Positions 8,881 through 49,765 of a DNA stretch of 64,000 nucleotides are shown piece by piece. How positions within the stretch are numbered: position 1 is the stretch's first letter; every line of letters begins with the position of its first letter. The notes under the pieces were generated by a model. The model did not search any database. It was not told the origin of the DNA and was given only the letters and a program-made list of their open reading frames with translations. The position numbers were made by a program, and so were the translations under genes. This DNA comes from Pseudomonas entomophila L48 (lineage in GTDB: Bacteria > Pseudomonadota > Gammaproteobacteria > Pseudomonadales > Pseudomonadaceae). The DNA lies in contig NC_008027.1 in the NCBI RefSeq assembly GCF_000026105.1, positions 616,501 through 680,500 of the forward strand, read 5' to 3'.

Positions 8881-8953
8881 CAGGCTTCGCCCACGGCGCT
8901 CGGTGAGTCGGCGACCACCCGCACACAAGGACATTGATAAAAGGATGAGCAAG

Positions 8954-10084: not shown

Positions 10085-10123
10085 CCCTTTGCGACATGAC
10101 GTAGCGCAACAAGGAACAAGGCA

Positions 10124-11329
10124 ATGAACATACTCGAAGTGGCGGGCGGCAAGCCGATCAAACTGTGGACCGACGGTGTGCCGGTCGAGGACGACGCCCG
10201 CAAGCAACTGATGAACACGGCGAAGATGCCGTTCATCTTCAAGCACCTGGCGGTGATGCCGGACGTGCACCTGGGCAAGGGCTCGACCATCGGCAGCGTG
10301 ATCCCCACCGTGGGCGCGATCATTCCGGCGGCGGTGGGCGTGGACATCGGTTGCGGCATGATCGCCGCGCGCACCTCGCTGCACGCCCGCGACCTGCCGG
10401 ACAACCTGCACGGCCTGCGCACCGCCATCGAGAAGGCCGTGCCCCACGGCAAGACCTTCGGCCAGCGCGACCAGGGCGCCTGGGACGACGTACCGAACCA
10501 GGCCGACCAGGTGTGGAGCGGACTCGCTGGGCGCTTCAAGGCGATCACCGACAAGTACCCGCGGCTGGAGAAGACCAACAACCGCCAGCACCTGGGAACG
10601 TTGGGGGGCGGCAACCATTTCATCGAAGTCTGCCTGGACGAGGCCGACCGCGTCTGGTTCATGTTGCACAGCGGGTCGCGCGGTGTGGGTAATGCCATCG
10701 GCAACCTGTTCATCGAACTGGCCCAGGCCGACATGCGCCAGCACATGGCCAACCTGCCGAACCGGGACCTGGCGTACTTCGAGGAAGGCAGCCGCCACTT
10801 CGCCGACTATGTCGAGGCGGTGGAATGGGCGCAGGATTTCGCCCGGCATAACCGCGAGCTGATGATGCTGGCGGTGGTCGCCGCGACCCGCAGGGTCTTG
10901 GGAAGGCCGTTCGAAGCCAGCCTCGAGGCGGTGAACTGCCACCACAACTACGTGCAGAAGGAGCAGCACTTCGGTCGTGAGGTGCTGGTGACCCGCAAGG
11001 GCGCGGTGTCGGCGCAGAAGGGCCAGCTGGGCATCATCCCGGGCTCGATGGGCGCCAAGAGCTTCATCGTTCGCGGCCTGGGCAACGAGGAATCGTTCTG
11101 CTCGTGCAGCCACGGCGCGGGCCGGGTGATGAGCCGCACCAAGGCCAAGAGCCGCTTCACCGTCGAGGACCAGCAGCGCGCCACCGCCCATGTGGAGTGC
11201 CGCAAGGACAAGGACGTGATCGACGAGATCCCGATGGCCTACAAGGACATCGATGCCGTCATGCATGCCCAGCGCGAGCTGGTCGAAGTTGTGCACACCC
11301 TGCGTCAGGTGGTGTGCGTGAAAGGTTGA
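10124..11329 (+). CDS. rtcB: RNA-splicing ligase RtcB
   Basis: 401 aa. RtcB joins RNA 3'-phosphate or 2',3'-cyclic phosphate ends to 5'-OH ends using GTP and Mn2+. The metal-site Cys is in GVDIGCGM (Cys77), and HLGTLGGGNHF and LHSGSRGVGN carry further metal and phosphate ligands. The guanylated His is in CSHGAGR (His330), and GSMGAKS is intact. The length fits the shorter bacterial RtcB class. It follows slipin by 39 nt and precedes a nucleotidyltransferase by 23 nt, all downstream of one σ54 promoter facing rtcR. No rtcA (RNA cyclase) gene is present in this window. Confidence 0.97.
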   Translation: MNILEVAGGKPIKLWTDGVPVEDDARKQLMNTAKMPFIFKHLAVMPDVHLGKGSTIGSVIPTVGAIIPAAVGVDIGCGMIAARTSLHARDLPDNLHGLRTAIEKAVPHGKTFGQRDQGAWDDVPNQADQVWSGLAGRFKAITDKYPRLEKTNNRQHLGTLGGGNHFIEVCLDEADRVWFMLHSGSRGVGNAIGNLFIELAQADMRQHMANLPNRDLAYFEEGSRHFADYVEAVEWAQDFARHNRELMMLAVVAATRRVLGRPFEASLEAVNCHHNYVQKEQHFGREVLVTRKGAVSAQKGQLGIIPGSMGAKSFIVRGLGNEESFCSCSHGAGRVMSRTKAKSRFTVEDQQRATAHVECRKDKDVIDEIPMAYKDIDAVMHAQRELVEVVHTLRQVVCVKG

Positions 11330-11352
11330 ACCCCTGCACAAGGATCGGGGCC

Positions 11353-12165
11353 ATGTATCAGGAAGAATTGCATCCACTGTCCACCGCCATGCGTGAGCGG
11401 GTGCTGGACGAACTGCAACGTATCGAGCGCGAGCACCAGGTGACGGTGCTCTACGCTTGCGAGTCCGGCAGCCGGGCCTGGGGCTTCGCCTCGCCGGACA
11501 GCGACTATGATGTGCGTTTCATCTACGTACCGCGTGCCGATTGGTACCTGCGCGTGGACGAGCCGCGCGACGTGATCGAGCGACCCTTGAGCGACGAGCT
11601 GGACGTCAGCGGCTGGGAGTTGCGCAAGGCCCTGCGCTTGATGCGCGGTGCCAACCCCAGCCTGCTCGAGTGGCTGGGCTCGCCGCTGGTGTACCGCGCC
11701 GACGTCGAGGCTGCGCGAGGATTGCAGGCGCTGGGTGACGAATGCTACTCGCCGCGCGCCGTGCGCCACCATTACCTGTCGATGGCGCGCAAGAACTTGC
11801 GTGGCTATCTGCTGGGCGACACGGTGCGCTACAAGAAGTACCTCTATGTGATCCGGCCGTTGCTGGCGGTTCGCTGGATCGACCGGGGGTTGGGCATGCC
11901 GCCGACGGCGTTCCCGGCATTGATGGCGCGTACCGTCGACGAGCCGGGGTTGCAGGCGGCGATCGATGCGTTGCTGGCGGTGAAGCGGCGTTCGGGGGAG
12001 GCTGAGCAGGGGCCGCGTGATGACGTGCTGCATGCGTTCATCGAGGCAGAGCTCGAACGGGCCGAAGGGGCGCAGGAGGTGCCGGTGGCGCGGGGGGACA
12101 CTGGCAGGTTGGATGCGTTCCTGCGGGAGACCGTTTGGCGGTTTTCGCAACCCGTACCCCTTTGA
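11353..12165 (+). CDS. RlaP-type nucleotidyltransferase (RNA-repair associated)
   Basis: 270 aa. The nucleotidyltransferase fold is clear from GSRAWG (39-44) followed by DSDYD (49-53; catalytic Asp51 and Asp53). The C-terminal part is helical and basic (HYLSMARKNLRGYLLG). The sequence belongs to the DUF/YcgL-type family (RlaP) often encoded beside RNA ligases and RtcB. It is the last gene of the σ54-controlled operon. A role in adding or editing nucleotides on broken RNA before ligation is plausible but not shown. A REP pair follows directly and may end the transcript. Confidence 0.85.
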   Translation: MYQEELHPLSTAMRERVLDELQRIEREHQVTVLYACESGSRAWGFASPDSDYDVRFIYVPRADWYLRVDEPRDVIERPLSDELDVSGWELRKALRLMRGANPSLLEWLGSPLVYRADVEAARGLQALGDECYSPRAVRHHYLSMARKNLRGYLLGDTVRYKKYLYVIRPLLAVRWIDRGLGMPPTAFPALMARTVDEPGLQAAIDALLAVKRRSGEAEQGPRDDVLHAFIEAELERAEGAQEVPVARGDTGRLDAFLRETVWRFSQPVPL

Positions 12166-12180
12166 TTTGGCGCGAGCCCT

Positions 12181-14107
<1,927 letters not shown>

Positions 14108-14115
<8 letters not shown>

Positions 14116-14647
14116 CAGGCATCTGGCTCAGACAGGTCAGGTAGCCTTCGTGGATGTACTTCTTGACCGTCGGCAGGGCGATGTTCAGGGCCTGGGCGAT
14201 GTCCTTCTGTTTCATGCCATCGAGGGTCGCCATCAGGAATGCCTGGCGCACACGTGGGCGCAGGGTATCGAGCACGGCGTCGATCTCGTGCAGGGTCTCG
14301 AGGATCACGCTTTGCTGCTCCGGGGAGGGGTGCTCAGGCTCCGGGACCTGCGCCAATGCTTCGAGCCAGGCCTGTTCGAGGGAATGACGACGGCGCCAGC
14401 TGACCAGCACGCAGTTGGCGATGCGGGCCAGGTAGGCGCGGGGTTGGCGCAGGGTGTCCGGCTGCGTGGCGTCGCGGTTGCTGAGCACGCGCAGGAAGAT
14501 GTCCTGGGCCAGGTCGTCGGCTACGCCATGCCCCCACGAGCGCAGTCGATACGCCAGCCAGCCGCGTAACCAGGCGTGGTTCTCGAGGTACAGCGTCGTG
14601 ACCGCACAGGGGGTGGTACGCAGGGGAGGGGTTTCGAAGGTGGTCAT
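14108..14647 (-). CDS. FecI-type ECF sigma factor
   Basis: 179 aa from the ATG at 14647; upstream in-frame codons run through the Fur box, so they are not used. Region 2 is seen in DDLAQDIFLRVL and the RAYLARIANCVLVSWRRR stretch. Region 4 (LDGMKQKDIAQALNIALPTVKKYI) ends in the VKKYIHEG signature of iron-starvation sigma factors. It should recruit polymerase to the divergent TonB-receptor gene once FecR is signalled. A Fur box 30 nt upstream predicts iron repression. Confidence 0.93.
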
Positions 14648-14676
14648 GGTGGGCTGAATCGGGGTTGTGATTGCGC

Positions 14677-14695
14677 AAATGAAAACCATTATCAC
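14677..14695 (-). promoter_or_regulatory. Fur box upstream of fecI-type sigma gene
   Basis: The minus strand reads GTGATAATGGTTTTCATTT, close to the 19-bp Fur consensus of repeated NATWAT units. It lies between the sigma gene and the receptor gene, in the right place to repress the sigma transcript when iron is plentiful. Confidence 0.8.
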
Positions 14696-14826
14696 TGGTT
14701 TCTTTTTAATCACAAGCCTTCGATGAAAATACGAATCGAGTGCATATACCTTTTTCGATCTCGTGCGACAGAAAGGGTAGAAGCCCGCATCGAGTGCCGG
14801 GCGCAAACCCTACGAGCGAGAAAAGC

Positions 14827-17757
14827 ATGCCCGCAGCACGTCGGCTTCCCCCTGTTTCGCGCCCTTTGCAGCGCCCATCCCCGATCAGTTTCGCCGTGCG
14901 CTGCGCGATGCTTGGCTGCCTGATGACAGGCGGCGTGTCCCTGGCCCAGGCCGCTGGCGCGGTGACCAGCGTGGCCACACGGCTTGACGACGCCACGCCG
15001 CGCGACTACGACATCGGGCAAGGCCCATTGGGGACTTCGCTGGGTGTGTTCGCCAACCAGTCCGGCCTGCTGCTGTCCTATGACCCCGACCTGACCCGGG
15101 GCCGCGCGGCACCGGCGCTCAAGGGGCGCTACACGGTGCTGGAAGGTGCGCGGCGCCTGCTGGCGAACACCGGTTTGCAACTGCTGCCGAGCGCATCGGG
15201 CACCTACATCCTGGCGCCCCAGGCGCGGACGTCGTCCACCGCCACCGAGTTGAGCGCGACCGTGGTCGACTCCACCGAACTGCTCGATCCGCAGCGGGAC
15301 ACCTACCGCGCGCCTCGTTCAACGGTGCATCTGTCGCGGGAGGACCTCGACCGCTTCGGCACGGTGTCGGTGGGCGACATGCTCAAGGGCGTGGCGGGCG
15401 TGCAGGTGGGCGACAGCCGCAATGGTGGCGCGCTGGACGTCAATATCCGGGGTATCCAGGGGCAGAGCCGGGTGGCCGTACGGGTCGATGGCTCGGAGCA
15501 GGCGCTGGATGTCTATCGAGGCTACGGCGGCACCCAGCAGCGCAGCTACATCGACCCGGACCTGCTCAGCAGCGTCACCGTGAACAAAGGTCCCAGCACC
15601 CGCTCGGGCGCAATCGGCGGCTCGGTGGAAATGAAGACCCTGGGTGTCGACGACATCCTGGTGGACGGCAAGGACGTGGGGTTACGCCTGACCGGCAATC
15701 TCTGGAACAACGGTGTCGACCCCGACCATCGCAACAGCCACTCCCGGGACGAGGACCTGAGCGCGGTGCCACGCGACAAGCGCAACGGCCTGTTCGGCTC
15801 CAAGGCCGAGTCCGGCAGCGCGGCCTTCGCCTACAGCAACGAGCGCGTAGACCTGGTGGCGGCCTACGCGCACCGCAACCAGGGCAACTATTTTTCGGGC
15901 AAGCATGGCCAGGACCGCTACCGCCTCTACGACCGTGATGGCGACGAGCAGTCCAGCGTGGCCAGCACCTACAACGCCGGCGAGGAAGTGCTCAACTCGT
16001 CGTCGCAGACCGACTCCTACCTGCTCAAGACCACCTGGCGTTTGGCGGACGACCACACCCTGGAGTTGGGCTACCGCCGCTTCGAAGGGCGCATGGGCGA
16101 GATCATGCCGTCGGACATCTTCCGCTTTGGCACGGCCGGCATCTATCAATACCCCCAGTCCGAAATCGATATCGACACCTACACCGCGCGCTACCACTAT
16201 TTGCCCGAAGGCAACCCATGGGTGGACCTGACCAGCAACCTGTGGATGACCGATTCGAAGACCAGCACCCTGAGCGCGGCCTGGATGGCGCCCAAGTCGC
16301 AGCTGTTTCGCACCGACCGCAGCTGGTCGCGCCAGGACGACCGGCGCATCGGTGGCGACTTGAACAACGTGTCGCGCTTCACCACAGGCTACGGCGACTT
16401 CAAGCTCGACCTGGGCGGCGCCTTCCAGCTCGAAGACTTGCAACCGCAGAAAAGCGTGGTCGCCACCCAGCACGACATCAACGCCAACCGCATGCTGCGT
16501 GATGCATCACGCCAGGAGTTCAGCTTCAACGGCAAGCTGGAGTACCAGCCCATCGAGCAGGTGACGCTGTGGGGCGGGGGCCGCTACGCCCACTACCGGA
16601 CCAAGGACAACACCGTGCTGGCCGAAGCCCGCCGCGAGGAGCGCGAGGTGCGCTGGATCACCGCGAGCAGCCCGGAACACTGGGGCAGCATGATGTGGTT
16701 CCCCGACCAGAACGGCCAGTACACCGACGCCACCGACCCCCGCCTGAACAACGGCATTGTCTTCGAGAACAGCAACGAGCCTTTCAATGGTGTGCCGTTC
16801 AACGAGTCCGGCGCGGTTGACGTGACGGTGTATCCGGAAGACATCAGCAGCGTGGTCACTGGCTACAACTACACCCCACAGGGCAAGAGCAGTGGCGGTG
16901 GTTTCTCGCCGGCCTTCGGCATCAATGTCGAGTTCCTGCCCGACACGTTCGTCTATGCCTCGTACACCCAGGGCCTACGCCTGCCTTCGTTGTTCGAGAC
17001 CAGCCAGGGCACCCAGCAGGTCACCCCGGGCAAGCACCTCGAGCCCGAGCGTTCGCGCAGCTGGGAGGTGGGCGTCAGTGCCCTGCGCAGCAGCCTGCTG
17101 GCGGCGGGCGACGAGGCGTCGGCGAAGCTGGCGTTCTTCGACAACGACATCAAGAACTACATCACCCGCTACTACGACCCGAGCCCGGGCAAGTGGGGGC
17201 AGATGACCTTCAGCAACACCGACCGCTTCCGTACCCGTGGCCTGGAGCTGCAGTCGCACTATGACGCCGGGCGTGTGTTCGCCGACCTGTCGGCCACCTA
17301 TTACCTGAAGACCGAAACCTGCGACGCGGCCTTCGCCGCCAAGCTGCGCGCCAGTGCCAACCGCTACCAGCCCACCCAGAACACCCCGGACTGCACGCCG
17401 GGCAGCTACATGGGGTCGTACACCAACACCCAGAACCCGCCGAAGTTCTCGGCCAACCTCACCACCGGCCTGCGCTTCTTCGATGAGGCGCTGACCGTGG
17501 GCGGGCGCATGACCTACACCTCCGGCCCCACCGCGCAGATGGACAAGCCGTGGCAGACCGGCGCCACCACGCCGCAGATCGACTACCGTTCGGTGGCGTT
17601 GTTCGACCTGTTCCTCAAGTACAAGGTGTTGGAGCACACCGAACTGAACCTGTCGGTGCAGAACCTGACGGACCGCTACTACCTGGACCCGCTGGCGCAG
17701 AGCTTCATGCCCGCACCGGGGCGGACAGTGCGAATGGGGGTGCAAACGCGGTTCTAG
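14827..17757 (+). CDS. TonB-dependent outer-membrane receptor with signalling domain
   Basis: 976 aa from the ATG at 14827 (MPAARRL), giving a signal peptide that ends near AQAAGA. The N-terminal STN signalling domain (about 55-125, IGQGPLGTSLGVFANQSG) is followed by a plug (SREDLDRFGTVSVGDMLKGVAGVQ, then VNKGPSTRSGAIGG) and a β-barrel ending in the aromatic MGVQTRF. The plug and barrel blocks (GYRRFEGRMGEIMPS) resemble the heme/hemoglobin-type receptor group (TIGR01786-like). The neighbouring esterase instead suggests a siderophore, so the ligand is open. With FecI and FecR it forms a self-inducing surface-signalling unit. Confidence 0.9.
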   Translation: MPAARRLPPVSRPLQRPSPISFAVRCAMLGCLMTGGVSLAQAAGAVTSVATRLDDATPRDYDIGQGPLGTSLGVFANQSGLLLSYDPDLTRGRAAPALKGRYTVLEGARRLLANTGLQLLPSASGTYILAPQARTSSTATELSATVVDSTELLDPQRDTYRAPRSTVHLSREDLDRFGTVSVGDMLKGVAGVQVGDSRNGGALDVNIRGIQGQSRVAVRVDGSEQALDVYRGYGGTQQRSYIDPDLLSSVTVNKGPSTRSGAIGGSVEMKTLGVDDILVDGKDVGLRLTGNLWNNGVDPDHRNSHSRDEDLSAVPRDKRNGLFGSKAESGSAAFAYSNERVDLVAAYAHRNQGNYFSGKHGQDRYRLYDRDGDEQSSVASTYNAGEEVLNSSSQTDSYLLKTTWRLADDHTLELGYRRFEGRMGEIMPSDIFRFGTAGIYQYPQSEIDIDTYTARYHYLPEGNPWVDLTSNLWMTDSKTSTLSAAWMAPKSQLFRTDRSWSRQDDRRIGGDLNNVSRFTTGYGDFKLDLGGAFQLEDLQPQKSVVATQHDINANRMLRDASRQEFSFNGKLEYQPIEQVTLWGGGRYAHYRTKDNTVLAEARREEREVRWITASSPEHWGSMMWFPDQNGQYTDATDPRLNNGIVFENSNEPFNGVPFNESGAVDVTVYPEDISSVVTGYNYTPQGKSSGGGFSPAFGINVEFLPDTFVYASYTQGLRLPSLFETSQGTQQVTPGKHLEPERSRSWEVGVSALRSSLLAAGDEASAKLAFFDNDIKNYITRYYDPSPGKWGQMTFSNTDRFRTRGLELQSHYDAGRVFADLSATYYLKTETCDAAFAAKLRASANRYQPTQNTPDCTPGSYMGSYTNTQNPPKFSANLTTGLRFFDEALTVGGRMTYTSGPTAQMDKPWQTGATTPQIDYRSVALFDLFLKYKVLEHTELNLSVQNLTDRYYLDPLAQSFMPAPGRTVRMGVQTRF

Positions 17758-17794
17758 GCCAACCCAGTCCCCTCTTTTAGCCGAAAAGCCTCCA

Positions 17795-17828
17795 GCAGGC
17801 CCGATGCTGCGCAAGCACCCGGGCCTGC
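17795..17828. terminator. Strong hairpin after the receptor gene
   Basis: GCAGGCCCG (17795-17803) and CGGGCCTGC (17820-17828) are a perfect 9-bp inverted repeat, and the enclosed tgctgcgcaagca can pair further. It starts 38 nt after the receptor stop. The T-run after it is weak (ctcctttg), so it may be a pause or stability hairpin rather than a classical terminator. Confidence 0.55.
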
Positions 17829-18136
17829 GACCCCTCCTTTGATATCCCACGTGCCTTGAAGGTCGCGCTGACACCAATCTGCGCATCTGTCCCATATCGC
17901 ATGTCGAAAACACCCATATTCCGTGAGGACTTTCCCTACTAATTTTCCGTACGCATCCGCATAGAGTTTTCCGCAGCAACGCTCGGATCGCCTGGATGAA
18001 CCGCTGGCAGTCAACGGAGCTTCAGGCGCATCCCGATGTTTCAACCGTGTCGCAGTCCAGAGGTGCCGGGCATTCCCTGTACCTGCTTGCGGGCTGGCCA
18101 CGGTTGTTTCTCAGTTCATGGCTCGGAGCTCGATCG
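17829..18136. other. Upstream region of the lux-like operon
   Basis: About 300 bases without a believable gene; the frame open from 17996 has no ribosome site before 18137. It is less GC-rich around 17870-17960 (for example cttgaagg, attccgtgaggactttccctactaattttccg), which is where a promoter would be expected. I could not assign a -10/-35 pair, an operator or a quorum-sensing type palindrome with confidence. Confidence 0.4.
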
Positions 18137-19261
18137 ATGAATCTTGTACACGTTGAAGCACTCTGCGCGCTTGAGGATCCCTACCAAGTCGGCGAGCACG
18201 CAGATCAGTTGTTTGATGCCGCGATGCGTGAAGTCACGGCTTACCACCAGCAACATTCGCCAGGCTATGCCGAATGGTTGTGCCAGCAGCAGTTCGACCC
18301 TTCTACTCTGTGTTCCCAGGCATGGGGCCAACTGCCACCGATTTTCGCCAACTATCTGAAGAAGCACCTGCTGCTCAGCGAAAGCGGCCTGGATGCGCTG
18401 GAACTGACTTCGTCAGGCACCACCGGCCAGAAAAGCCGGATGCGTTATGACACGCGTAGTCTCGGTGCCGCGCAAGGCATGGTCGACCGGATCTATCGGC
18501 GGTACGGCTGGGATACGCCGCAGGTGCCGTGCAACTACCTGATGCTGGGCTACGAGCCCGTCGGCCACAGCGCACTCGGCACGGCTTTTACCGACAACTT
18601 CCTCTGCAAGTACGCGCCGGTCAAACAGGCGTTCTACGCCCTGCGTCACAACGGCAGGCAGACAGAGTTCGACCCCTTCGGCGTCATCGAGGCATTGCAA
18701 CGGTTCGCGCGGGATGAGGCGCCACTGCGCATCCTGGGCTTCCCGGCGTTCATGTGGTTCGTTCTCGAGCGGATGCGGGAAATGAAGGTCCCGCCCCTGG
18801 CATTCGCTGCCGATTCGCTGGCCATGTTCGGTGGTGGCTGGAAAACCCATGCCGACCAGCAGATCCCCAAGGCCCAGTTGTATGCGCGGATGAACGAACA
18901 GTTGGGCATACCGACCTCGCGCTGCCGTGACGGTTACGGCTCCGTCGAGCACTGCGTGCCCTATGTCGAGTGCGAAAACCACCGCCACCACGTGCCCACC
19001 TACTCCCGAGCCTTCACCCGCCACACCGGGACGTTCGCCTTGCAGGGTTACGGGCAGCCGGGGCTGATCCAGTTCGTGTCGCCGTACATCACCTCCAGCC
19101 CCGCCCACAGCATCGTGATGAGTGACCTGGCGGTGCTGCATCGCGGTGACGAGTGTGGCTGCGGCATTGCCACCGACTGGTTCGAGATTCTTGGGCGGGC
19201 AGGTACCGGCAAGAGCCGCAGCTGCGCATTGGCCGCCTCTGAACTGATAAGGGAGAACTGA
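18137..19261 (+). CDS. LuxE-like acyl-protein synthetase
   Basis: 374 aa from the ATG at 18137, with ggag 9 nt before it; the length matches LuxE (about 370). LuxE activates a fatty acid with ATP and passes the acyl group to its own C-terminal Cys, then to LuxC. The adenylation loop is SSGTTG (92-97). The C-terminal KSRSCALAASEL places a Cys at 363, the position expected for the acyl-accepting Cys of bacterial LuxE (364 in V. harveyi as I recall it). A DECGCG motif precedes it. It is the first gene of a four-gene operon with only 1-29 nt between genes. No luxA or luxB is nearby, so the product is not for light. Confidence 0.85.
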   Translation: MNLVHVEALCALEDPYQVGEHADQLFDAAMREVTAYHQQHSPGYAEWLCQQQFDPSTLCSQAWGQLPPIFANYLKKHLLLSESGLDALELTSSGTTGQKSRMRYDTRSLGAAQGMVDRIYRRYGWDTPQVPCNYLMLGYEPVGHSALGTAFTDNFLCKYAPVKQAFYALRHNGRQTEFDPFGVIEALQRFARDEAPLRILGFPAFMWFVLERMREMKVPPLAFAADSLAMFGGGWKTHADQQIPKAQLYARMNEQLGIPTSRCRDGYGSVEHCVPYVECENHRHHVPTYSRAFTRHTGTFALQGYGQPGLIQFVSPYITSSPAHSIVMSDLAVLHRGDECGCGIATDWFEILGRAGTGKSRSCALAASELIREN

Positions 19262-19262
19262 T

Positions 19263-21671
19263 ATGTACCTCATTCAAGGGCAGTACCATGCGGACCTGAC
19301 GCTGGACCAGGCATTGGTACGGTTGACGGGCGAACTGGCGCACACGCTGAGCCATCCCTGCGGTATCGAGACCGTGCTGGCCTGCGCCGGTCGGTTTGCC
19401 GAGAAACTGCTGGACGGTGAGTTCCTGGCTGAACTCGATGCCGCTCTAAGGGAGCAGCTCCGAGCGTTCTGCCAGCCTGACGTTCTGCGCGCCAAGCTGG
19501 AGAACGAACTGGGTGTCAATCCATTCTCCTTGCGTCGTCGCGATTATCGGGTCCCCCGCTTCGAGAGCTGGCGGCCGCTGGGTCTCATCCTGCATATCAC
19601 CCCAGGCAATGCGCCGCTGCTGCCATTCTTTGCCGTGCTGGAAAGCTTGCTGGTGGGCAATGTCAACTGGCTGCGCCCCAGCGGGCGCGATCAGGGCTTG
19701 AACACTCGGTTGCTGCAGGCCTTCCTGCAATGCGATCGATCCGGCGAGCTGGCCAACCATGTGGCGGTATTGCCGGTGGCCAAGGCCGAGCTTTCGAAGT
19801 TGATGCCCTATGCCGACGGTGTTTCGGCCTGGGGGGGAAACGAGGCATTGAAGACCATTCGCGACCAGTTGCCTGACGGCTGTCGATGGATTCCCTGGGG
19901 GCACAAGGTCAGTTTTGCCTGGCTGGTGCCGGAGGCGGTCGATGAGTGTGCGCTCGATGCGCTGGCCGACGAGGTCTGCCGCCTCGACCAGCAGGCCTGC
20001 TCCAGCCCGCAGGTGGTGTTCATCGACAGCGACGATGCGGACACGTTGCGAGCGTTGGGTGGGCAGTTGGCCGCGGCGATGCAGCGCCGCCATGCCCACT
20101 GGCCTGCACTGTCGCCCAGTGTGCAGGAGGCCGCGCAGGTCACCACCAAGCTGGCATTGGCCGAGCTGGATCACGCATTCGTCGATGGCAGAGGCCAGGT
20201 CTGGAGGGGGCAAGGTTGGCAGATTGTCCTTGAGCATGTGATGGCACTAGAGCCTTCGCCGCTGTTTCGCACGATCCTGCTTCGGCCATTGCCGCGCCGG
20301 GCGGTGATGCATGCCCTGCGACCTTGGCGTACCCGGTTGCAGACTTGCGGCTTGGTCAGCTCAGCCCACGAGTTCGCCCACCTCAGCCAGATGCTCCTGG
20401 CCGCTGGGGTCGACCGGGTCACGTCGGTGCAGACGATGCACGACGGCTACAGCGGTGAGCCTCACGATGGCGTGTATGCCCTGAGCATGTTCGCGCGCCG
20501 GGTCTCCGTGAGCCTGACGGAGGGCAGCCTGCCTGGGCAGGCGACCCTGGATGCCCGTGGCCAGGCACCCGCCGGCATGGAAGGGCAACCGATCATGAGC
20601 CGCAGTGCATTTCTGGACGGCTCGATGAGTGCGCACGCGCAGTTGTTCTTCCGCACTGGCGGTACCACGGGAACGCCAAGCCTTGCCGGTTATACCTACC
20701 GCGATTATCACCGGCAGATGCAGGCTGCGGCCGACGGACTGTTTGCCGCCGGCCTGGAGCCTGGCAAGGACCGGGTCATCAACCTGCTGTACGGGGGAAA
20801 TCTATACGGCGGCCTGCTCAGTTTCTTCACGGTCCTGGACAAGCTGGGCGTCAGGCACTATCCGATGGCGGGGCCCCAGGGTGATGATTATCGCGGGATC
20901 GCCCAACTGATCGTCTCCGAAGGAATCGACACCGTGATCGGCATGCCAACCACGGTGCACCAGTTGTTTTCCCGCGAGGCTGCAACACTGCGTGCCTATG
21001 GCGGGATCCGCAAGGTACTGCTGGGCGGTGAACATCTTGCACCGGCGCAGCGCACGTTCATCCAGGGCTTTGGCGTCGAGACCATCCGCTCCGCGCTCTA
21101 TGGCTCTGTCGATGCCGGCCCCTTGGGTTACACCTGCGCGTCCAGCCCGGACGGGGTCTTTCACCTGATGGGTGATACCCAGTGGCTGGAGATCGTCGAC
21201 CCCGAACGCGATGAGCCTGTCGCCCCAGGTGAGGCGGGGCGCTTGCTGTTCACCTCGAAGGCTCGGGAAGGGCATGACGTCACCCGTTACGACATCGGCG
21301 ACATGGGGCGTTGGGTGAATGGCCAGTGCCCATGCGGCGTGCCGGAGCCACGTTTCGAGCTGCTGGGGCGTCACGGTGCGCGGGTGCGCGTTGGTTCGCT
21401 GTTCATCCAGCCACAGCGGCTAGCCGCGCTGGCCGAAGCGCCGGTGCAACTGCACCTTGAAGTCAATCCTGACCATGGCCTGGAGCGTATTCGCCTGCTG
21501 GCGGAGGCAGAACCCGGCCTGGTAAGGGCCAGGGTGTGTGCCGACGCGGAGTTGAGCAAGGCATTGTCGCTTGGGTTGCTGGAACTGGAAGTGTGCCAAC
21601 GGGCACAACAGCACTTCGAAAGTCACCCGCAGACTGGGAAGACACCGCTGGTCATCGACAAACGTCGCTGA
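19263..21671 (+). CDS. LuxC-like acyl reductase fused to a PaaK-like ligase
   Basis: 802 aa. Residues about 1-400 match LuxC, the NADPH-dependent reductase that turns an enzyme-bound acyl group into aldehyde: VPRFESWRPLGLILHITPGNAPLLP, VAWGG-like SAWGGNEALK, and the catalytic Cys in DQQACSSPQ (Cys246). Residues about 450-802 are a second module of the phenylacetate-CoA-ligase/LuxE superfamily, with RTGGTTGTPS (T465-T471 region), YGSVDAGPLGY, RYDIGDMGRW and a CPCG cysteine pair. Stand-alone LuxC is about 480 aa, so this is a real fusion with no stop or frameshift at the joint. The start follows the LuxE stop by 1 nt. It suggests acyl activation and reduction within one chain. Confidence 0.85.
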   Translation: MYLIQGQYHADLTLDQALVRLTGELAHTLSHPCGIETVLACAGRFAEKLLDGEFLAELDAALREQLRAFCQPDVLRAKLENELGVNPFSLRRRDYRVPRFESWRPLGLILHITPGNAPLLPFFAVLESLLVGNVNWLRPSGRDQGLNTRLLQAFLQCDRSGELANHVAVLPVAKAELSKLMPYADGVSAWGGNEALKTIRDQLPDGCRWIPWGHKVSFAWLVPEAVDECALDALADEVCRLDQQACSSPQVVFIDSDDADTLRALGGQLAAAMQRRHAHWPALSPSVQEAAQVTTKLALAELDHAFVDGRGQVWRGQGWQIVLEHVMALEPSPLFRTILLRPLPRRAVMHALRPWRTRLQTCGLVSSAHEFAHLSQMLLAAGVDRVTSVQTMHDGYSGEPHDGVYALSMFARRVSVSLTEGSLPGQATLDARGQAPAGMEGQPIMSRSAFLDGSMSAHAQLFFRTGGTTGTPSLAGYTYRDYHRQMQAAADGLFAAGLEPGKDRVINLLYGGNLYGGLLSFFTVLDKLGVRHYPMAGPQGDDYRGIAQLIVSEGIDTVIGMPTTVHQLFSREAATLRAYGGIRKVLLGGEHLAPAQRTFIQGFGVETIRSALYGSVDAGPLGYTCASSPDGVFHLMGDTQWLEIVDPERDEPVAPGEAGRLLFTSKAREGHDVTRYDIGDMGRWVNGQCPCGVPEPRFELLGRHGARVRVGSLFIQPQRLAALAEAPVQLHLEVNPDHGLERIRLLAEAEPGLVRARVCADAELSKALSLGLLELEVCQRAQQHFESHPQTGKTPLVIDKRR

Positions 21672-21700
21672 CCCACCGTGCATGAAGAGGACGCAGAAAC

Positions 21701-22993
21701 ATGGATTACTCCAGCAAATGCCCGCTTGCACTGGCATGGCTCGTCGATCATGTCCGAGCCCATTCCCCTTACTATGCCCGGCTGTATCGGGACCTCCCGA
21801 AAGCGGGCTGGACACTGGCCGACCTGCCGATGGTCGATGCCCAGCAGTATTGGGCGCGCGGGGCGGTGCTCGAAGACTGGCCCGTGCTGACGGGGCCGGT
21901 AACCGACGCGATCGTCTACAAGACCGGTGGCACGACCGGCGCGGCCAAGCACTCGGTCTACACCCAGGCAGAGTGGGATCAATTCATCACGACGTTCGGG
22001 CGCAGCCTGTGTGCCTGGCTCGAGCCCGGTGACCGTGTAGCCAACTTGTTCTTCGCGGGCGACCTGTATGCCAGCTTCCTGTTCATTCAAGGGGCGTTGG
22101 CCAAGACCCAGCTGCCGATCTGCGTGTTCCCCTTCACCGGCGCGGTCGATCCACAGGCGCTGGCGACGCAGGTCACGCAGCACGGGATCAACGTTCTGGC
22201 GGGCGTGCCGGGGAAACTCCTGCACGCCATCGCCAGTCTCGAACAGGACGGTATCCAGCTGCCAGGGGTGAGGACGGTCCTGTATGGCGGGGAAAGCGTG
22301 TTTGCCGAGCAACGCGCGTTGTTCAAGGCGGTGCTGCCCAACGCCAAGGTGGTATCGATCGGCTGTGCCAGCGTGGACGCGGGCCTGATTGGCGCCAGCA
22401 CGGTCGATTGTGCACCGGGTGAGCATCGTGTCTTCGAGCCCGACACCCTCGTCGAAATCGTTGATGAAGCCTCGGGCGAGCCAATTCACGAGGCCAACCG
22501 TACCGGCCTGTTGCTGGTGACCAACCTGACGCGTGCCTTGATGCCCGTTATTCGCTACCCCGTCGGTGACCTAGCGCAATGGACCGAAGCACCAGGGAGC
22601 GCCAGCCGCAAGTTCAAGCTCGCAGGGCGCAGCAGCCTCGGTCACCGGGTGAGGATCGGTTATGCAACGCTCTTCCCGGACGAACTGGCGGTGGCTATCG
22701 AGGAGCGCTTGGGGCAATGCCAGTGGCAACTGGTGATCGACAGGAAGAACGGCACCGACTTCATCGTGCTTCGTATTGCTCATCCTGGTGACGGCGGATG
22801 CGCCGAGGCATTGCTGCAGTCTCTGAAAGCAGGCGACGCTGCTGTGGTCGAGCTCATGGAGAAGGGGGCGCTGGTAGTGTCGGTCAGTTGGTGCCAACCC
22901 TTGGATCTGGTGACGAATCAGCGAACGGGCAAGTTGTTGCGTGTTGTCGACAGACGAGACTATCAGCCCCTGCTCGAGGAGGCTGCTCGATGA
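21701..22993 (+). CDS. PaaK/LuxE-family adenylate-forming ligase
   Basis: 430 aa, 29 nt after the fusion gene. It is a phenylacetate-CoA-ligase-like protein with adenylation loop KTGGTTGAAK (75-80 core), YGGESVFAEQRALF, and a late RYPVGDLAQW block. The short C-terminal domain (RVIGYATLFPDEL-type hinge, then a βαβ lid) is present. With LuxE and the fused module it is the third adenylate-forming domain in this operon, so the pathway probably activates more than one carboxylic acid or uses amide/ester formation. The substrate is not predictable. The stop overlaps the next ATG (ATGA). Confidence 0.8.
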   Translation: MDYSSKCPLALAWLVDHVRAHSPYYARLYRDLPKAGWTLADLPMVDAQQYWARGAVLEDWPVLTGPVTDAIVYKTGGTTGAAKHSVYTQAEWDQFITTFGRSLCAWLEPGDRVANLFFAGDLYASFLFIQGALAKTQLPICVFPFTGAVDPQALATQVTQHGINVLAGVPGKLLHAIASLEQDGIQLPGVRTVLYGGESVFAEQRALFKAVLPNAKVVSIGCASVDAGLIGASTVDCAPGEHRVFEPDTLVEIVDEASGEPIHEANRTGLLLVTNLTRALMPVIRYPVGDLAQWTEAPGSASRKFKLAGRSSLGHRVRIGYATLFPDELAVAIEERLGQCQWQLVIDRKNGTDFIVLRIAHPGDGGCAEALLQSLKAGDAAVVELMEKGALVVSVSWCQPLDLVTNQRTGKLLRVVDRRDYQPLLEEAAR

Positions 22994-23904
22994 TATTTGT
23001 CCGTGGATTCGAGGAGCATGATGCGGCGCAGGTCAGTGCGTTGTTCAACAGGGTCTATGGCGAAGACTATTTCTACCCGGAGATCTATCTGCCCTCCGTC
23101 ATCTGCCAGCACAACCGGACGCGGCGCTGGCAATCCGTGGTCGCGCTGCAGGGAGGCCATATTGTCGGTCATGCCCTGCTGTGGCGCTCATCGGAGGATG
23201 AACGCCGTGCCGAGCTGGCCATGATCGTCGTCGATCCCCAGGCGAGGGGACAGGGCATCGCGACCCGCTTGGGCCGGCACTTGTGTGACTTGGCTCGTCG
23301 GCAACACATGGCGGTGTTGACGATCAAGATGGTCGCCAGCCACGTGTGGACACAGCGACTGGGGGCTGCACTGGGGTTCCAGGCCACGGGGCTGCTGCTC
23401 GATTACGTCGATTCGCCGATCTGCCATCCCGCGCGGGAAACCGCCATCCTGGGTGTGCTGCCCTTGCAGGCGCTACCTCTGCCTCTGATGGACATGCCAG
23501 GTGACCAACCGCCGTGGATAGCCCCGTTGATCGAGCAATTCGGAGCGGTTTCGGCCGGTTTTGTCGGGGATCGTGCGGCACTGACGAAAATTGCGGTCCA
23601 GGATGATCGCCTGGACCTGATCATCGAGTGCGCAAACCACCTCTCGATCATCGAAGCCTCACGATTGTCGTCTACCCGGATGACCCACGTCTGGGTAAGG
23701 ATGGATGCCAATCTGCCAATGGCGTTGTCGGTGCTCCATCAGGCAGGTTATGCCGACATGGGGCTTGCCCTGGGGCCTGGGCGGCATTGGTACTGGTTGC
23801 TGCAGCGCGGCTTTTCCGGCCGCCCGTTGCAGCTTCACAGCCCGACGGCGCGTGCGTTGCTTGCCAGCGTGAAGCAACAGGCGCTCCACGCCGAAGCGTG
23901 CTGA
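22990..23904 (+). CDS. GNAT-type acyltransferase with extra C-terminal domain
   Basis: 304 aa from the ATG at 22990, overlapping the ligase stop. Residues 1-150 are a GNAT fold: the acetyl-CoA loop VVDPQARGQGIATRLGRHL carries the Q/R-x-x-G-x-G/A pattern, followed by LGFQATGLLLDYV. Residues about 160-304 form a second region of unclear origin, possibly a degenerate GNAT repeat. As the last gene of the lux-like operon it may acylate an amine formed from the aldehyde product, which is inference from context only. A minus-strand terminator lies 25 nt after the stop. Confidence 0.75.
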   Translation: MIFVRGFEEHDAAQVSALFNRVYGEDYFYPEIYLPSVICQHNRTRRWQSVVALQGGHIVGHALLWRSSEDERRAELAMIVVDPQARGQGIATRLGRHLCDLARRQHMAVLTIKMVASHVWTQRLGAALGFQATGLLLDYVDSPICHPARETAILGVLPLQALPLPLMDMPGDQPPWIAPLIEQFGAVSAGFVGDRAALTKIAVQDDRLDLIIECANHLSIIEASRLSSTRMTHVWVRMDANLPMALSVLHQAGYADMGLALGPGRHWYWLLQRGFSGRPLQLHSPTARALLASVKQQALHAEAC

Positions 23905-23928
23905 GTATCGGGAATGGCGGGCATTAAA

Positions 23929-23949
23929 AAGCCGGCTTGTGGCCGGCTT
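23929..23949 (-). terminator. Rho-independent terminator of the S24-like gene
   Basis: AAGCCGGC/GCCGGCTT stem (23929-23936 with 23942-23949). On the minus strand it is followed by TTTTTAATGC, a proper T-run, so it serves the minus-strand gene ending at 24152. The same stem may also stop the plus-strand lux-like operon. The 200 bases between it and 24152 hold nothing I recognise. Confidence 0.75.
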
Positions 23950-24151
23950 CTCGGGGACGGTCTTGGCTCATTTTTGATAAGCCGCAACCGCCTTAAACGG
24001 TTGGCAACATGGCCTGAAAAAGATGGCGGACGGCTGTGTGAGGCGTCGCCAGGCCCTCTGGAATGCGGCTTGCACCATCAGGGGGCGTGATGTGCGGCGT
24101 AGCATACTAGGGCTCGGGGCCTGTGCCCAGCAAAAAATGGTGCGAGGTGTT

Positions 24152-24850
24152 TCAGGCTGGGCGCGTCGGGCGCAGACACGACCACCAGAACACCCAGCCG
24201 AGGATCTCCAGGTGTTGGGCCCGGCGCTGGTACGCGGTATAGCGTTCGGTCGGGTGGTTGAGGCGGTCATGGCTGTGCAGGCACAGGGTGCCGTGGCGGC
24301 CAAGGGTGAGCTGGTGCACGCGCAGCTTGCCATTGTGCAGCAGTGCGTAGCACTCACCCTCGACGACCCGGGTGAAGCTGCGGTCGACTGCCAACAGTGT
24401 GCCTTGTGGCAGGTAGGGCGCCATGTTATTTGCCGGCATGCCAATGCAGAACGCGTGTTGCGTGGCCACGCGGACGCGGTCGAGAGCCTCCCTGGGGATT
24501 GGCTGATGAAGGCCCGGCACGGCCTCGAGGCCACTTTCGTGGGGGTGAAAGAGGGGTAGGGGGACGCGTTCCGCGCCCAGGGCCAGCAATGGCGCGGGTG
24601 GTTCCTCGCGCGGTCTGGCCGGACGGGGTGGCGTAAAAGGCCCCGGGTGCTTTGGGCCCTCGCCACTGCGCAGCCAGCGCGGGTGCACACAGAACAATCC
24701 GGCGATTTCCTCCACGCGCGCCTGGGGCACGCCGCGCTTGAGCCAGTTGTTGACGTGCTGGGGGGTGACCTTGCGTTGGGCGGCAAAGTCCGAAGGGGTC
24801 AGGTTGCACTCCTGCAGGAGAGCTTTGAGGCGGTCGCCAGAAGTGTTCAT
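24152..24850 (-). CDS. HTH (XRE) regulator with S24/LexA-like C-terminal domain
   Basis: 232 aa. The N-terminal XRE helix-turn-helix (about 5-60, LTPSDFAAQRKVTPQHVNNWLKRG) is followed by a proline-rich linker and a peptidase S24-like domain from about 110. The catalytic Ser position of LexA/CI proteins (usually D/A-S-M-x-P) reads NNMAPYL here, so the nucleophile seems to be Asn, and the general-base Lys block (GKLRVHQL) is also unusual. It may therefore be a non-cleavable repressor that responds to something other than RecA. It stands alone, with no phage genes around it, just upstream of ppa on the same strand. Confidence 0.8.
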   Translation of the reverse strand: MNTSGDRLKALLQECNLTPSDFAAQRKVTPQHVNNWLKRGVPQARVEEIAGLFCVHPRWLRSGEGPKHPGPFTPPRPARPREEPPAPLLALGAERVPLPLFHPHESGLEAVPGLHQPIPREALDRVRVATQHAFCIGMPANNMAPYLPQGTLLAVDRSFTRVVEGECYALLHNGKLRVHQLTLGRHGTLCLHSHDRLNHPTERYTAYQRRAQHLEILGWVFWWSCLRPTRPA

Positions 24851-27941: not shown

Positions 27942-28766
27942 TTACCCTTCTCCGAGTAGGAAATTTCCGCTTTTGGTGCCGGTGTTATTGCTGTCGATGC
28001 TATGGACCTCCGCTTCGTCCTTGAGGTTCACCCCCGAAAGCTGTCGCCGGCAGGCTTCACGCATCAAGTACAGCAGGCGATGGGCGGCCATGCCATAGCT
28101 CAGGCCTTCCAGGCGCACGTTGGAGATGCAGTTGCGGTAGGCGTCGGTGAGGCCGACCTTGGGCGCGTAGGTGAAGTACAGCCCGAGGCTGTCGGGCGAG
28201 CTCAGGCCCGGGCGTTCGCCGATCAGCATCACGGTCATGCGCGCGCCCAGCAGTTCGCCCACTTCGTCGGCCACCGCCACGCGGCCCTGTTCCACCAGCA
28301 CCACCGGGGCGCTGGTCCAGCCTTCGGCGGCGGCCTGCTCCTCGAAGCGGCTCAGGAAGGGTAGCGTGTGGCGGTGCACGGCCAGGGCGGAGAGCCCGTC
28401 GGCAACGACGATGGCCAGGTCCACCCCGCCAGGGTTGGCCTGGGCATGCTCGCGCAAGCGCTGGGCCGAGTCCTCGTGCAGGCGCCGGCCCAGGTCGGGC
28501 CGTTGCAGGTATTGGTGGCGGTCGCTGGCGGCGCTGTGCAGCAGCAAGCTGTCGCGGCCCCGGTCACTGAGCTGCTGGCGCAGGCCGGCGTGGTCGAAGG
28601 GCAGGTGCACGGCGTCGCGGGCCTGGGCGTGGGCATACTGGAAGTCCAGCTGGGCGCCGGTGGGCAGGCTGATGCCGGTGCGCCCCAGGGCGATGCGCGC
28701 GGGGGTAAGGTTGCGCAGCGCCAGCCAGGGGTTGTCCGGGGTGGGGGTATGTCGATCCATGGTCAC
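27942..28766 (-). CDS. eutC: Ethanolamine ammonia-lyase small subunit
   Basis: 274 aa; a second in-frame ATG two codons later is equally possible. With EutB it converts ethanolamine to acetaldehyde and ammonia using adenosylcobalamin. Recognisable blocks are [13 protein letters not shown] near the N-terminus, [33 protein letters not shown] and [14 protein letters not shown] near the C-terminus. The gene directly follows eutB (2-nt gap) on the minus strand. Confidence 0.97.
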
Positions 28767-28768
28767 CT

Positions 28769-30163
28769 CTAGGCCAGGTGCGCCAGTGCGTGGCGGAAGG
28801 CCGGTGGCAGGTTGTCGCCGAAGCGCACGCGGCCATCGGCCTGGGTGAAGATACCCGTGCGCTCCAGCCAGGCCTCGAATTCCGGCCCGGGCTTCAGGCC
28901 CAGGGTCTGGCGGGCGTAGAGCGCGTCGTGGAACGAGGTGGTCTGGTAGTTGAGCATGATGTCGTCGGAACCGGGGATGCCCATGATGAAGTTGATCCCG
29001 GCCACGCCCAGCAGGGTCAGCAGGGTATCCATGTCGTCCTGGTCGGCTTCGGCGTGGTTGGTGTAGCAGATGTCGCAGCCCATCGGCACGCCCAGCAGTT
29101 TGCCGCAGAAGTGGTCCTCGAGGCCGGCGCGGATGATCTGCTTGCCGTTGTACAGGTATTCCGGGCCAATGAAGCCGACCACGGTGTTGACCAGGAATGG
29201 CTTGAAGTGGCGGGCCACGGCGTAGGCGCGGGTTTCGCAGGTTTGCTGGTCGACGCCATGGTGGGCGTTGGCCGACAGCGCGCTGCCCTGGCCGGTCTCG
29301 AAGTACATCAGGTTCTGCCCGACCGTGCCGCGCTTGAGCGACAGACCGGCCTCGTAGCCTTCCTGCAGCACGTTGAGGTTGATGCCGAAGCTGGCGTTGG
29401 CCGCTTCGGTGCCGGCGATGGACTGGAACACCAGGTCCAGCGGCACACCACGGTTGATCGCCTCGATCGAGGTGGTGACGTGGGTGAGCACGCAGGCTTG
29501 GGTGGGGATCTGGTAGCGCTGGATGATGGCGTCGAGCATCTCCAGCAGGGCGCAGATCGAGGCAATGCTGTCGGTGGCCGGGTTGATGCCGATCATGGCG
29601 TCGCCGTTGCCGTAGAGCAGGCCGTCGAGGATGCTGGCGGCGATGCCGGCCGGCTCGTCGGTGGGGTGGTTGGGCTGCAGGCGGGTCGACAGCCGGCCGC
29701 GCAGGCCCATGGTGCCGCGGAACTGGGTGACCACGCGGATCTTTTGCGCCACCAGCACCAGGTCCTGTACACGCATGATCTTCGACACCGCGGCGGCCAT
29801 TTCCGGCGTCAGGCCCGGCGCCAGGGCGCGCAGGCTGTGTTCGTCGGCCTGCTCGCCCAGCAGCCAGTCGCGCAGGCCGCCGACGGTCAGGTGGCTGACC
29901 GGGGCGAAGGCCTGTTTGTCATGGGTGTCGATGATCAGCCGGGTGACTTCGTCCTGCTCGTAGGGGATCAGCGCCTCGTTGAGGAAGTGCGTCAGCGGGA
30001 TGTCGGCCAGGGCCATCTGCGCCGCGACCCGCTCACCATCGTTGCTGGCGGCGACGCCCGCCAGGTAATCGCCCGAGCGCGCCGGGCTGGCCTTGGCCAT
30101 CACTTCTTTGAGGCTGTCGAAACGGTAGATCTGGTGACCGACCGTGTGCACGAAACTTGCCAT
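28769..30163 (-). CDS. eutB: Ethanolamine ammonia-lyase large subunit
   Basis: 464 aa from the ATG at 30163 ([15 protein letters not shown]); the longer open frame covers the gap before the permease gene. This is the catalytic TIM-barrel subunit: [43 protein letters not shown], and the late [18 protein letters not shown] substrate/B12 region are all present. The length is normal. It acts with eutC; no shell-protein or eutA reactivase genes are nearby, so this is the simple non-microcompartment type. Confidence 0.97.
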
Positions 30164-30212
30164 ACAGAATCTCCAGGGCGCCGCAGGGCTGGCCTGCGGC
30201 GTGGGTCGGCGC

Positions 30213-31661
30213 TCAGTGCAGGGCCTCTTCGGCCTGCTGGATCGCGGCGAATTCCTCTTCGGGCGTGCCGGCCACCAGGTGATGGCGGCTGTAGAAAGCA
30301 AAGTAGGCAATCAATACGGCATAGATCAAGGCGGCGCCGATCACCACCCGCGGATCGACCAGGAAGCCGGCGACCACGGCGATGCAGGCCAGCACCAGGG
30401 CCACGCCCGAGGTGAAGATGCCACCTGGGGTGCGGTACGGGCGCTCCATTTTCGGCCGGCGGATGCGCAGGGTGATGTGCGCGGCCATCATCAGCACGTA
30501 GGACAGCGTCGCGCCGAACACCGCCACCAGGATCAGCAGGTCGCCCTGGCCGGTCAGCGACAGGGCGAAACCGATGATCCCGGGGATCACCAGGGCCAGC
30601 ACCGGCGCCTTGCTCTTGTTGGTTTCCGACAGCTTGCGCGGCAGGTAGCCGGCACGGGACAGGGCGAAGATCTGCCGCGAATAGGCGTAGATGATCGAGA
30701 AGAAGCTGGCGATCAGGCCGGCCAGGCCGACCAGGTTGACGAAGCCGCCCATCCAGGTGGAGCCGCCATAGGCTTTGGCCAGCGCCTCGACCAGTGGGTT
30801 GCCCGAGGCCTTCAGTGCGTCGGCACCGGCGCCGCCAGGGCCGACCACCAGGATCAGCAGGGCGAAGGCGAGCAGTACCAGCATGGCGCCGATCAGACCG
30901 CGGGGCAGGTCGCGCTTGGGGTTCTTGGTTTCCTCGGCGGCCAGGGGTACACCCTCGACCGCAAGGAAGAACCAGATCGCGTAGGGGATCGCCGCCCACA
31001 CGCCGACGTAACCGAACGGCAGGAAGCTGCTTGCACCAACCGCGTCGGTCTTGGCGATGTCGAACAGGTTGGCTGCATCGAAATGGGGCACCATGCCGAT
31101 CAGGAACACGGCCAGGGCAATGGCGGCGATGGCCGTGATGATGAACATCAGCTTCAGCGCCTCGCCGACCCCGAAGATGTGGATGCCGATGAACACGATG
31201 TAGAAGGCGAGATAAATCATCCAGCCGCCGATGCCGAACAGCGACTGGCAGTAGGCGCCGATGAACACGGCGATGGCCGCGGGGGCGATGGCGTACTCGA
31301 TGAGGATCGCCGTGCCGGTGAGGAAGCCGCCCCAGGGGCCGAAGGCGCTGCGGGCGAAGCCGTAGCCGCCGCCGGCGGTGGGGATCATCGACGACAACTC
31401 CGCCAGGGAGAAGCACATGCACAGGTACATGGTGGCCATCAGCAGGGTGGCGAGGAACATGCCGCCCCAGCCGCCCTGGGCCAGGCCGAAGTTCCAGCCG
31501 GCGTAGTCGCCGGAGATCACGTAGGCCACGCCCAGGCCCACCAGCAGGACCCAGCCGGCGGCGCCTTTCTTCAGTTCACGTTGCTGGAAATAGTCCGAGC
31601 CGACTTTTTCGAAGTCGACGGAGGAGCTCGCCGGCGCGCCGGCGGAGTGATCGCTTGGCAT
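30213..31661 (-). CDS. eat: Ethanolamine permease (APC superfamily)
   Basis: 482 aa from the ATG at 31661, with AGGTG 6 nt ahead; a GTG three codons upstream is less likely. About 12 membrane spans, starting at GWVLLVGLGVAYVISGDYAGWNFGLA. The block FSLAELSSMIPTAGGGYGFARSAFG is typical of APC amino-acid/amine permeases of the EutP/Eat group. It supplies ethanolamine to EutBC encoded immediately downstream (49 nt). Confidence 0.93.
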   Translation of the reverse strand: MPSDHSAGAPASSSVDFEKVGSDYFQQRELKKGAAGWVLLVGLGVAYVISGDYAGWNFGLAQGGWGGMFLATLLMATMYLCMCFSLAELSSMIPTAGGGYGFARSAFGPWGGFLTGTAILIEYAIAPAAIAVFIGAYCQSLFGIGGWMIYLAFYIVFIGIHIFGVGEALKLMFIITAIAAIALAVFLIGMVPHFDAANLFDIAKTDAVGASSFLPFGYVGVWAAIPYAIWFFLAVEGVPLAAEETKNPKRDLPRGLIGAMLVLLAFALLILVVGPGGAGADALKASGNPLVEALAKAYGGSTWMGGFVNLVGLAGLIASFFSIIYAYSRQIFALSRAGYLPRKLSETNKSKAPVLALVIPGIIGFALSLTGQGDLLILVAVFGATLSYVLMMAAHITLRIRRPKMERPYRTPGGIFTSGVALVLACIAVVAGFLVDPRVVIGAALIYAVLIAYFAFYSRHHLVAGTPEEEFAAIQQAEEALH

Positions 31662-31726
31662 GGTGTTCACCTGTTTTTTTCGTTTTTGAGTGGTGAAGGT
31701 GTTGCAGGATGTGGGCCAGGGGACGG

Positions 31727-46254: not shown

Positions 46255-46256
46255 CC

Positions 46257-47144: not shown

Positions 47145-47155
47145 GGGGGAAACGG

Positions 47156-49690: not shown

Positions 49691-49765
49691 TGGCAGAATG
49701 CCATCCCTATTCGTTGAACGGTTCTATGCTGTCAAACAGGTCTCACAGTCAGGGTAGACGCGATC

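Follow-up and report, generated by a model that had tools for sequence, protein, structure and literature searches.

A leupABCD operon in Pseudomonas entomophila L48, predicted to make leupeptin or a close analogue

This analysis concerns a four-gene operon at positions 18137–23904 of a 64,000-nucleotide stretch of the Pseudomonas entomophila L48 genome (RefSeq assembly GCF_000026105.1, contig NC_008027.1, positions 616,501 to 680,500, forward strand); the whole stretch is called the window below. The operon encodes a LuxE-like protein, a LuxC reductase fused to an adenylate-forming ligase, a free-standing ligase and a GNAT acyltransferase, and we identify it as leupABCD, the leupeptin operon. 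Leupeptin (Ac-Leu-Leu-argininal) is a small peptide aldehyde that inhibits proteases. Its operon has been characterised by others in Klebsiella, Xenorhabdus and Photorhabdus, and Li et al. 2020 (Angew. Chem. 59:17872) is said to be the founding paper on leupABCD.

Four coupled genes and their identity as leupABCD

The genes lie at the following window coordinates (aa, amino acids).

18137..19261, + strand: leupA orthologue, LuxE-like acyl-protein synthetase, 374 aa (PF04443, 89 bits), with acyl-accepting Cys363
19263..21671, + strand: leupB orthologue, fusion of a LuxC acyl reductase with a PaaK-like adenylating ligase, 802 aa (PF05893, 369 bits, then PF00501); LuxC domain at about aa 34–412 with Cys246, ligase domain at about aa 460–802 with an A10-type Lys793
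21701..22993, + strand: leupC orthologue, free-standing PaaK-like adenylate-forming ligase, 430 aa (PF00501), with an A10-type Lys411
22990..23904, + strand: leupD orthologue, GNAT N-acyltransferase, 304 aa (PF00583)

All four genes are on the + strand, separated by 1 nt (A/B) and 29 nt (B/C) and joined by a 4-nt overlap of the leupC stop with the leupD start. The leupD start at 22990 agrees with that of the Klebsiella michiganensis gene, whereas a longer open reading frame (ORF) from 22798 does not. The initial annotation, made from the letters of the window, had described four coupled genes here with gaps of 1 to 29 nt or overlaps; its coordinates, the spacing and the LuxC–ligase fusion were borne out, and its count of three adenylate-forming modules, one reductase and one acyltransferase agrees with the domain content. 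The gene set is confirmed to be real and its reading frames are intact. In a search of the whole genome, a single contig of 5.89 Mb, the LuxE family was found at one place only, the operon. The LuxC family gave a strong match of 372 bits at the operon; at a second place the 21-bit cut-off was reached only with in-frame neighbours, and a third place stayed below it.

PMC8283571 gives the leupA–D locus tags of K. oxytoca CAV1374 (AB185_06775-06790), with a transporter adjoining, and a primer pair, leupA_f/leupB_r, with a product of 1,235 bp. Both primers match a locus of K. michiganensis DSM 25444 (L028) without mismatch and span 8924–10158, which is 1,235 bp as printed there; leupA_f lies inside the LuxE-like gene (ORF 8863–9999) and leupB_r inside the LuxC fusion (10001–12409). 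The window genes are homologous one to one and in the same order to those of this locus, with 66, 62, 57 and 44% identity for A, B, C and D, and the LeupD alignment extends over 301 aa with residue 1 aligned to residue 1. The primer match and the one-to-one homology in order therefore identify the window operon as leupABCD, and the gene families, order and strand, the homology to the printed copy and the catalytic residues all agree with those of leupABCD. The initial annotation had known of no named pathway with exactly this order, and this statement has to be withdrawn, as the order already has a published name and a published product.

PMC11480411 describes leupeptin as a major product of the K. 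oxytoca ATCC 8724 (now K. michiganensis) leup operon, alongside a lysine analogue and a leupeptin-derived pyrazinone, and a homoarginine pyrazinone as a product of the Xenorhabdus and Photorhabdus leup operons. For X. bovienii SS-2004, PMC11212599 states, citing Li et al. 2020, that a set of separate AMP-dependent ligases, together with a reductase, produces leupeptin.

The operon proved to be a conserved unit. In a pattern scan covering the genomes of 84,980 species, a relative turned up at 387 loci; the analysis continued with the best 80 of these, and these 80 named loci together with the window make up the 81 loci counted throughout. The best 80 of the 387 belong to Pseudomonas, Klebsiella, Erwinia, Morganella, Cedecea, Burkholderia, Chromobacterium, Rugamonas, Iodobacter, Parachitinimonas, Photorhabdus, Xenorhabdus and two other genera. 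Each of the 81 loci has all four genes on a single strand and, by stop codon, in A-B-C-D order. By start coordinate two loci (L036, L096) seem out of order because of over-long ORFs, and their stop-codon order is normal. Family clustering gave fewer members (77, 80, 74 and 79 of 81 for A to D, and 50 for the adjoining transporter of the major facilitator superfamily, MFS), and the counts of the best-hit search (81/81 and 52) were preferred. Absence of this order from other genomes, named in the initial annotation as a reason to abandon its reading, was not what the scan found.

Catalytic residues and the predicted product

In bioluminescence, a LuxE/LuxC pair converts an acid to an aldehyde via enzyme-bound thioesters. 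Both Cys residues are present as first described. Cys363 of the LuxE-like protein aligns with a Cys near the C-terminus of LuxE in PDB 7xc6, and Cys246 of the LuxC domain with the DQQACFS Cys of the LuxC protein in that entry. Neither is lost in homologues, which would have been the other reason to drop the earlier reading: C246 is kept in 81/81 loci and C363 in 80/81, the exception (L089) being an alignment gap. Each ligase module also keeps its C-terminal Gly-Lys motif, with K793 and K411 each in 81/81. Between the window and four relatives, dN/dS is 0.07–0.22 for leupA–D; the four genes are therefore maintained by purifying selection.

Judged from its sequence, the product of the operon is very probably leupeptin (N-acetyl-Leu-Leu-argininal) or a close analogue with a basic aminoaldehyde at its end. 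The parts fit leupeptin, which supports this assignment: the two ligase modules would account for its two amide bonds, LuxE with LuxC for the single reduction, and the one GNAT protein for the one acetyl group. From them we infer which module serves which amino acid, which ligase makes which bond, the order of the steps, and production of the compound by the window strain. LeupD would acetylate leucine, and LeupC and the C-terminal half of LeupB would adenylate the growing acid and couple the next free amino acid without a carrier protein, giving Ac-Leu-Leu and then Ac-Leu-Leu-Arg. LeupA would adenylate the tripeptide acid, load it on Cys363 and transfer it to the LuxC domain at Cys246, where the thioester would be reduced with NAD(P)H. 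The resulting aldehyde, in turn, would trap trypsin-like and papain-like proteases at their active-site Ser or Cys. Antipain, MAPI and livipeptin belong to the same product class, small peptide aldehyde protease inhibitors (PMC11212599, PMC10548850), but their routes use nonribosomal peptide synthetases (NRPS) or tRNA-using enzymes; a Pfam scan found no condensation or carrier domain in any of the four window proteins, and the operon is thus set apart from the NRPS peptide aldehydes.

Several points weigh against leupeptin itself as the product. LeupD is the least conserved of the proteins, with 44% identity to Klebsiella LeupD and the widest variation among the four relatives (62–92%), and the N-acyl group could therefore differ. 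The Leu/Leu/Arg specificity is assumed from the orthologues, and among those orthologues the lysine variant of K. oxytoca and the homoarginine pyrazinone of Xenorhabdus and Photorhabdus come from leup operons too (PMC11480411). Unlike 52 of the 81 loci, the window has no MFS gene before leupA. There is no match to a sigma-70-type promoter in 17650–24160, and the Klebsiella leup operon is described as silent in usual media in PMC11480411. These points would allow the product to vary, but they do not make room for another pathway.

Such a variant is possible but distinctly less likely than leupeptin or its close analogue: the same machinery might attach another N-acyl group, use other neutral residues, end in Lys or homoarginine, stop at a dipeptide, or yield mainly a pyrazinone after cleavage and cyclisation. 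The lysine analogue and pyrazinones just cited argue for it, as does the lower conservation of LeupC and LeupD relative to LeupA and LeupB. Against it stand the unchanged Gly-Lys motifs and Cys residues and the place of the operon in a clade with K. michiganensis, for whose operon leupeptin is a major product. It is very improbable that, as the initial annotation had it, the genes serve an unnamed route to some aldehyde, amide or imine that has nothing to do with leupeptin; the homologues do carry generic names in their source records (acyl-CoA reductase, phenylacetate-CoA ligase, GNAT), but all four genes correspond one to one and in order to the published leupABCD by primers and by identity.

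It is hardly credible that the operon is a luciferase-less lux remnant producing fatty aldehyde, for although LuxE and LuxC domains occur, they reach only 64 of 550 bits (LuxE) and 57 of 750 bits (LuxC) with the true lux models of NCBIfam, far below the cut-offs, the LuxC domain is part of a fusion with a ligase, and the four genes stay together as a conserved unit in 81/81 loci; a fatty-aldehyde or lux origin was accordingly ruled out by the family scores and the fusion architecture. What defines a lux bioluminescence operon, namely luxCDABE with luciferase and with LuxC and LuxE above the cut-offs, was not found here. None of the four proteins showed a luciferase or luxD-like domain in the Pfam scan, in line with the earlier statement that luxA, luxB and luxD are absent, and a genome search with the LuxD family (PF02273) gave no match, which is a weak negative because 14 controls were equally without a match. 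The earlier view of an aldehyde-forming small-molecule operon, rather than one for light, was upheld.

Insertion site and relatives of the operon

The following features adjoin the operon upstream or enclose it.

13183-14115, − strand: FecR-like regulator (PF04773)
14108-14806, − strand: ORF of a FecI-type sigma factor (sigma-70 regions; NF009181 above cut-off)
14740..17757, + strand: TonB-dependent receptor of the heme/hemoglobin type with an STN domain; 14740 is the first possible start, and TIGR01785 gives 297 bits, slightly below the cut-off of 317
17758..23921, + strand: inserted cassette of about 6.1 kb, between the TonB receptor stop codon and a terminator-like stem common to relatives

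The motif CATTAAAAAGCCGG starts at 23922, behind leupD. In four relatives with an empty site (G174, G102, G170 and G265), the TonB stop codon is followed by the same motif after 24, 24, 103 and 57 nt, respectively; the operon is therefore a clean cassette insertion in that slot. Another genome with the receptor and no operon (G200) carries about 2.9 kb of other DNA there. No repeats, RNA family or sigma-70 promoter match was found at the cassette borders. The receptor, FecI and FecR are not part of the pathway, because the receptor and FecI/FecR are found without the operon. A new siderophore pathway feeding the adjoining TonB receptor was considered and ruled out as the identity of the operon, since the genes are leupABCD and the receptor occurs in relatives without the cassette; a regulatory connection with iron is nevertheless conceivable. 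The FecR-like gene (13183-14115) is a fast-changing regulator, 61–64% identical in four relatives with dN/dS of 0.31–0.40, against 84–90% identity for the neighbouring FecI and TonB proteins.

Within the genus, the LuxC-fusion protein was detected in 61 of 298 genomes (E <= 1e-20), two of which (G281, G294) match in two pieces. Five genomes, including that of the window, have 73–100% identity to the window protein, and the remainder about 50–55%. P. entomophila COR5 (L026) is 93% identical to the window across 21.8 kb. A locus labelled Pantoea sp. Cy-639 (L024, NZ_VWXI01000009) has 87–95% DNA identity to the window, both flanks included, and is probably a mislabelled Pseudomonas. Between the window and another relative, G127, leupD has 79% aa identity and leupA–C have 92.5–93.8%; DNA identity is 86 and 82% in two 500-nt bins from 23000, and isolated bins elsewhere are also at 86–87%. 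The divergence of leupD from G127 may reflect local recombination of the acyltransferase gene.

The 36 rows of a LeupB tree came from the window, 32 of the 80 named loci, two Streptomyces plasmids and one Salmonella plasmid. The window clade groups with Klebsiella, Morganella, Erwinia, Cedecea and the Salmonella plasmid (98/90), and this Klebsiella-type group is nested in a larger set that also contains Xenorhabdus and Photorhabdus (95/84), so that genera with known producers lie on both sides of the window clade. The eight proteins of the P. fluorescens group in the tree form a separate deep branch (100/99), so that Pseudomonas holds two leup types with separate histories. Klebsiella oxytoca/michiganensis leupABCD resembles the window operon in having four homologues in the same order, the same domain make-up and a LeupB of the same clade, but an MFS gene lies directly upstream (7576–8835 in L028) where the window has the TonB receptor gene. 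Xenorhabdus and Photorhabdus share the four genes and their order, and no MFS gene was found next to them, as in the window; their LeupB, however, is 52–55% identical to that of the window and falls on the other side of the tree. The operons of the P. fluorescens group have the same four genes in the same genus and are also near iron-signalling genes. Given their separate deep branch, they are not vertical relatives of the window operon. Their LeupB is about 50–55% identical to that of the window, and their neighbours are PvdQ, not a heme-type receptor, with an MFS gene before leupA in one example (L037). In a tree of the receptor, leup-bearing and leup-less genomes form separate clades and the forks between clades lack resolution, so that one gain with losses and two gains in the window's group are both possible.

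Relatives also occur on plasmids. A Salmonella enterica plasmid (L104, CP054717) carries a complete leupABCD-like set at 10872-16630. This plasmid is typed as conjugative, IncFIB/IncFII, with the set near recombinase and toxin–antitoxin genes, and its LeupB falls in a clade with chromosomal copies of Morganella, Erwinia and Cedecea. A Streptomyces plasmid (NZ_CP108162) has the same gene families clustered (PaaK, MFS, GNAT, LuxE and LuxC–ligase), but in a rearranged order and with a LeupB of about 43% identity over the covered 85%.

Transporter, iron-signalling neighbourhood and significance

An MFS gene stands before leupA in 52 of the 81 loci; the 29 without it are 19 of Xenorhabdus, 6 of Photorhabdus and 4 of the window type, and two of the Xenorhabdus/Photorhabdus loci (L045, L074) have too little upstream DNA for an MFS gene to be judged. 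Because Xenorhabdus and Photorhabdus loci lack it, an MFS gene next to leupA is not a defining feature of leup operons. Where it is present, no more than 300 nt separate its ORF end from the leupA ORF start in 48/52 loci; in three of the other four (L056, L068, L096) an over-long leupA ORF overlaps the MFS gene, and in the last (L064) the gap is 318 nt.

All five window-type genomes encode an unlinked MFS protein that is 55–57% identical to the Klebsiella transporter, the next match in the window genome being at 26%. When the lists were compared by eye, however, this protein was present at >=79% identity in 49 of the 298 genomes of the genus, only 5 of them with the operon. We therefore rejected it as a dedicated exporter in trans: it is a resident gene, found with or without the operon, which may or may not export the product. 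An MFS homologue of 52–58% identity was found in 55 genomes, all among the 56 with the other operon type (presence in the genome, lists again compared by eye).

Iron-signalling genes recur near both Pseudomonas types. In the upstream flanks of the P. fluorescens-type loci, a FecR-family gene and a PvdQ acylase gene were each found in 36 of 40 (in L037, FecR PF04773 scores 69 bits and PvdQ NF051460 1460 bits, cut-off 950); three of the four loci without FecR are short contigs (L052, L066, L102). FecR was present in 4/4 loci of the window type, and no FecR or PvdQ match was found in any of 37 loci of other genera. FecR-family matches number 14 in G000, 17 in G110, 6 in G046 and 2 in G183. The chance of FecR within 10 kb of a random site, estimated as 14 or 2 stretches of 20 kb divided by the genome length, is about 5% for G000 and about 0.6% for G183. 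Many P. fluorescens-type loci also have a large protein with a ToxA_N domain upstream of FecR/PvdQ (PF20178, 80 bits in L069, at 108-2747), a family occurring in 35/81 loci.

These two separate settlements of leup beside iron-signalling genes are suggestive, the comparison having been conceived after the data were seen, and insertion hot spots are a possible reason for settlement near FecR genes. Leupeptin might be part of iron capture in Pseudomonas, with the aldehyde or its pyrazinone acting in siderophore or heme uptake as a signal or an aid, and we hold this to be doubtful. Some weight is given to it because, according to PMC11480411, the leupeptin pyrazinone of K. oxytoca raises siderophore production and leup deletion lowers yersiniabactin.

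Elsewhere in the window, the − strand carries a match to the ethanolamine ammonia-lyase large subunit EutB (28769-30310), beside it a small-subunit-like gene (27942-28766), and then a permease-like ORF (30213-31670), the last two judged from sequence. On the + strand are an ShlB/FhaC-type outer-membrane protein with a POTRA domain (37963-39627), a Tad-type pilus cluster (41656-47857; secretin, TadZ, T2SSE ATPase, two T2SSF proteins and a TPR protein) and a large PAS-containing histidine kinase (49690-52842).

Among the leupeptin papers listed, titles and abstract openings showed no report of leupeptin biosynthesis in Pseudomonas, though the founding paper may include one. What the present analysis adds to the known operon is its presence in Pseudomonas as two types, the insertion site, the lack of a linked transporter in one of them, and the proximity of both to iron genes. 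The four genes are common in this genus, and one of the two types has its nearest kin in the Klebsiella operon. Should these strains make leupeptin, many pseudomonads would secrete a broad inhibitor of serine and cysteine proteases, and the shared iron-signalling setting offers a testable idea on the purpose of the compound.

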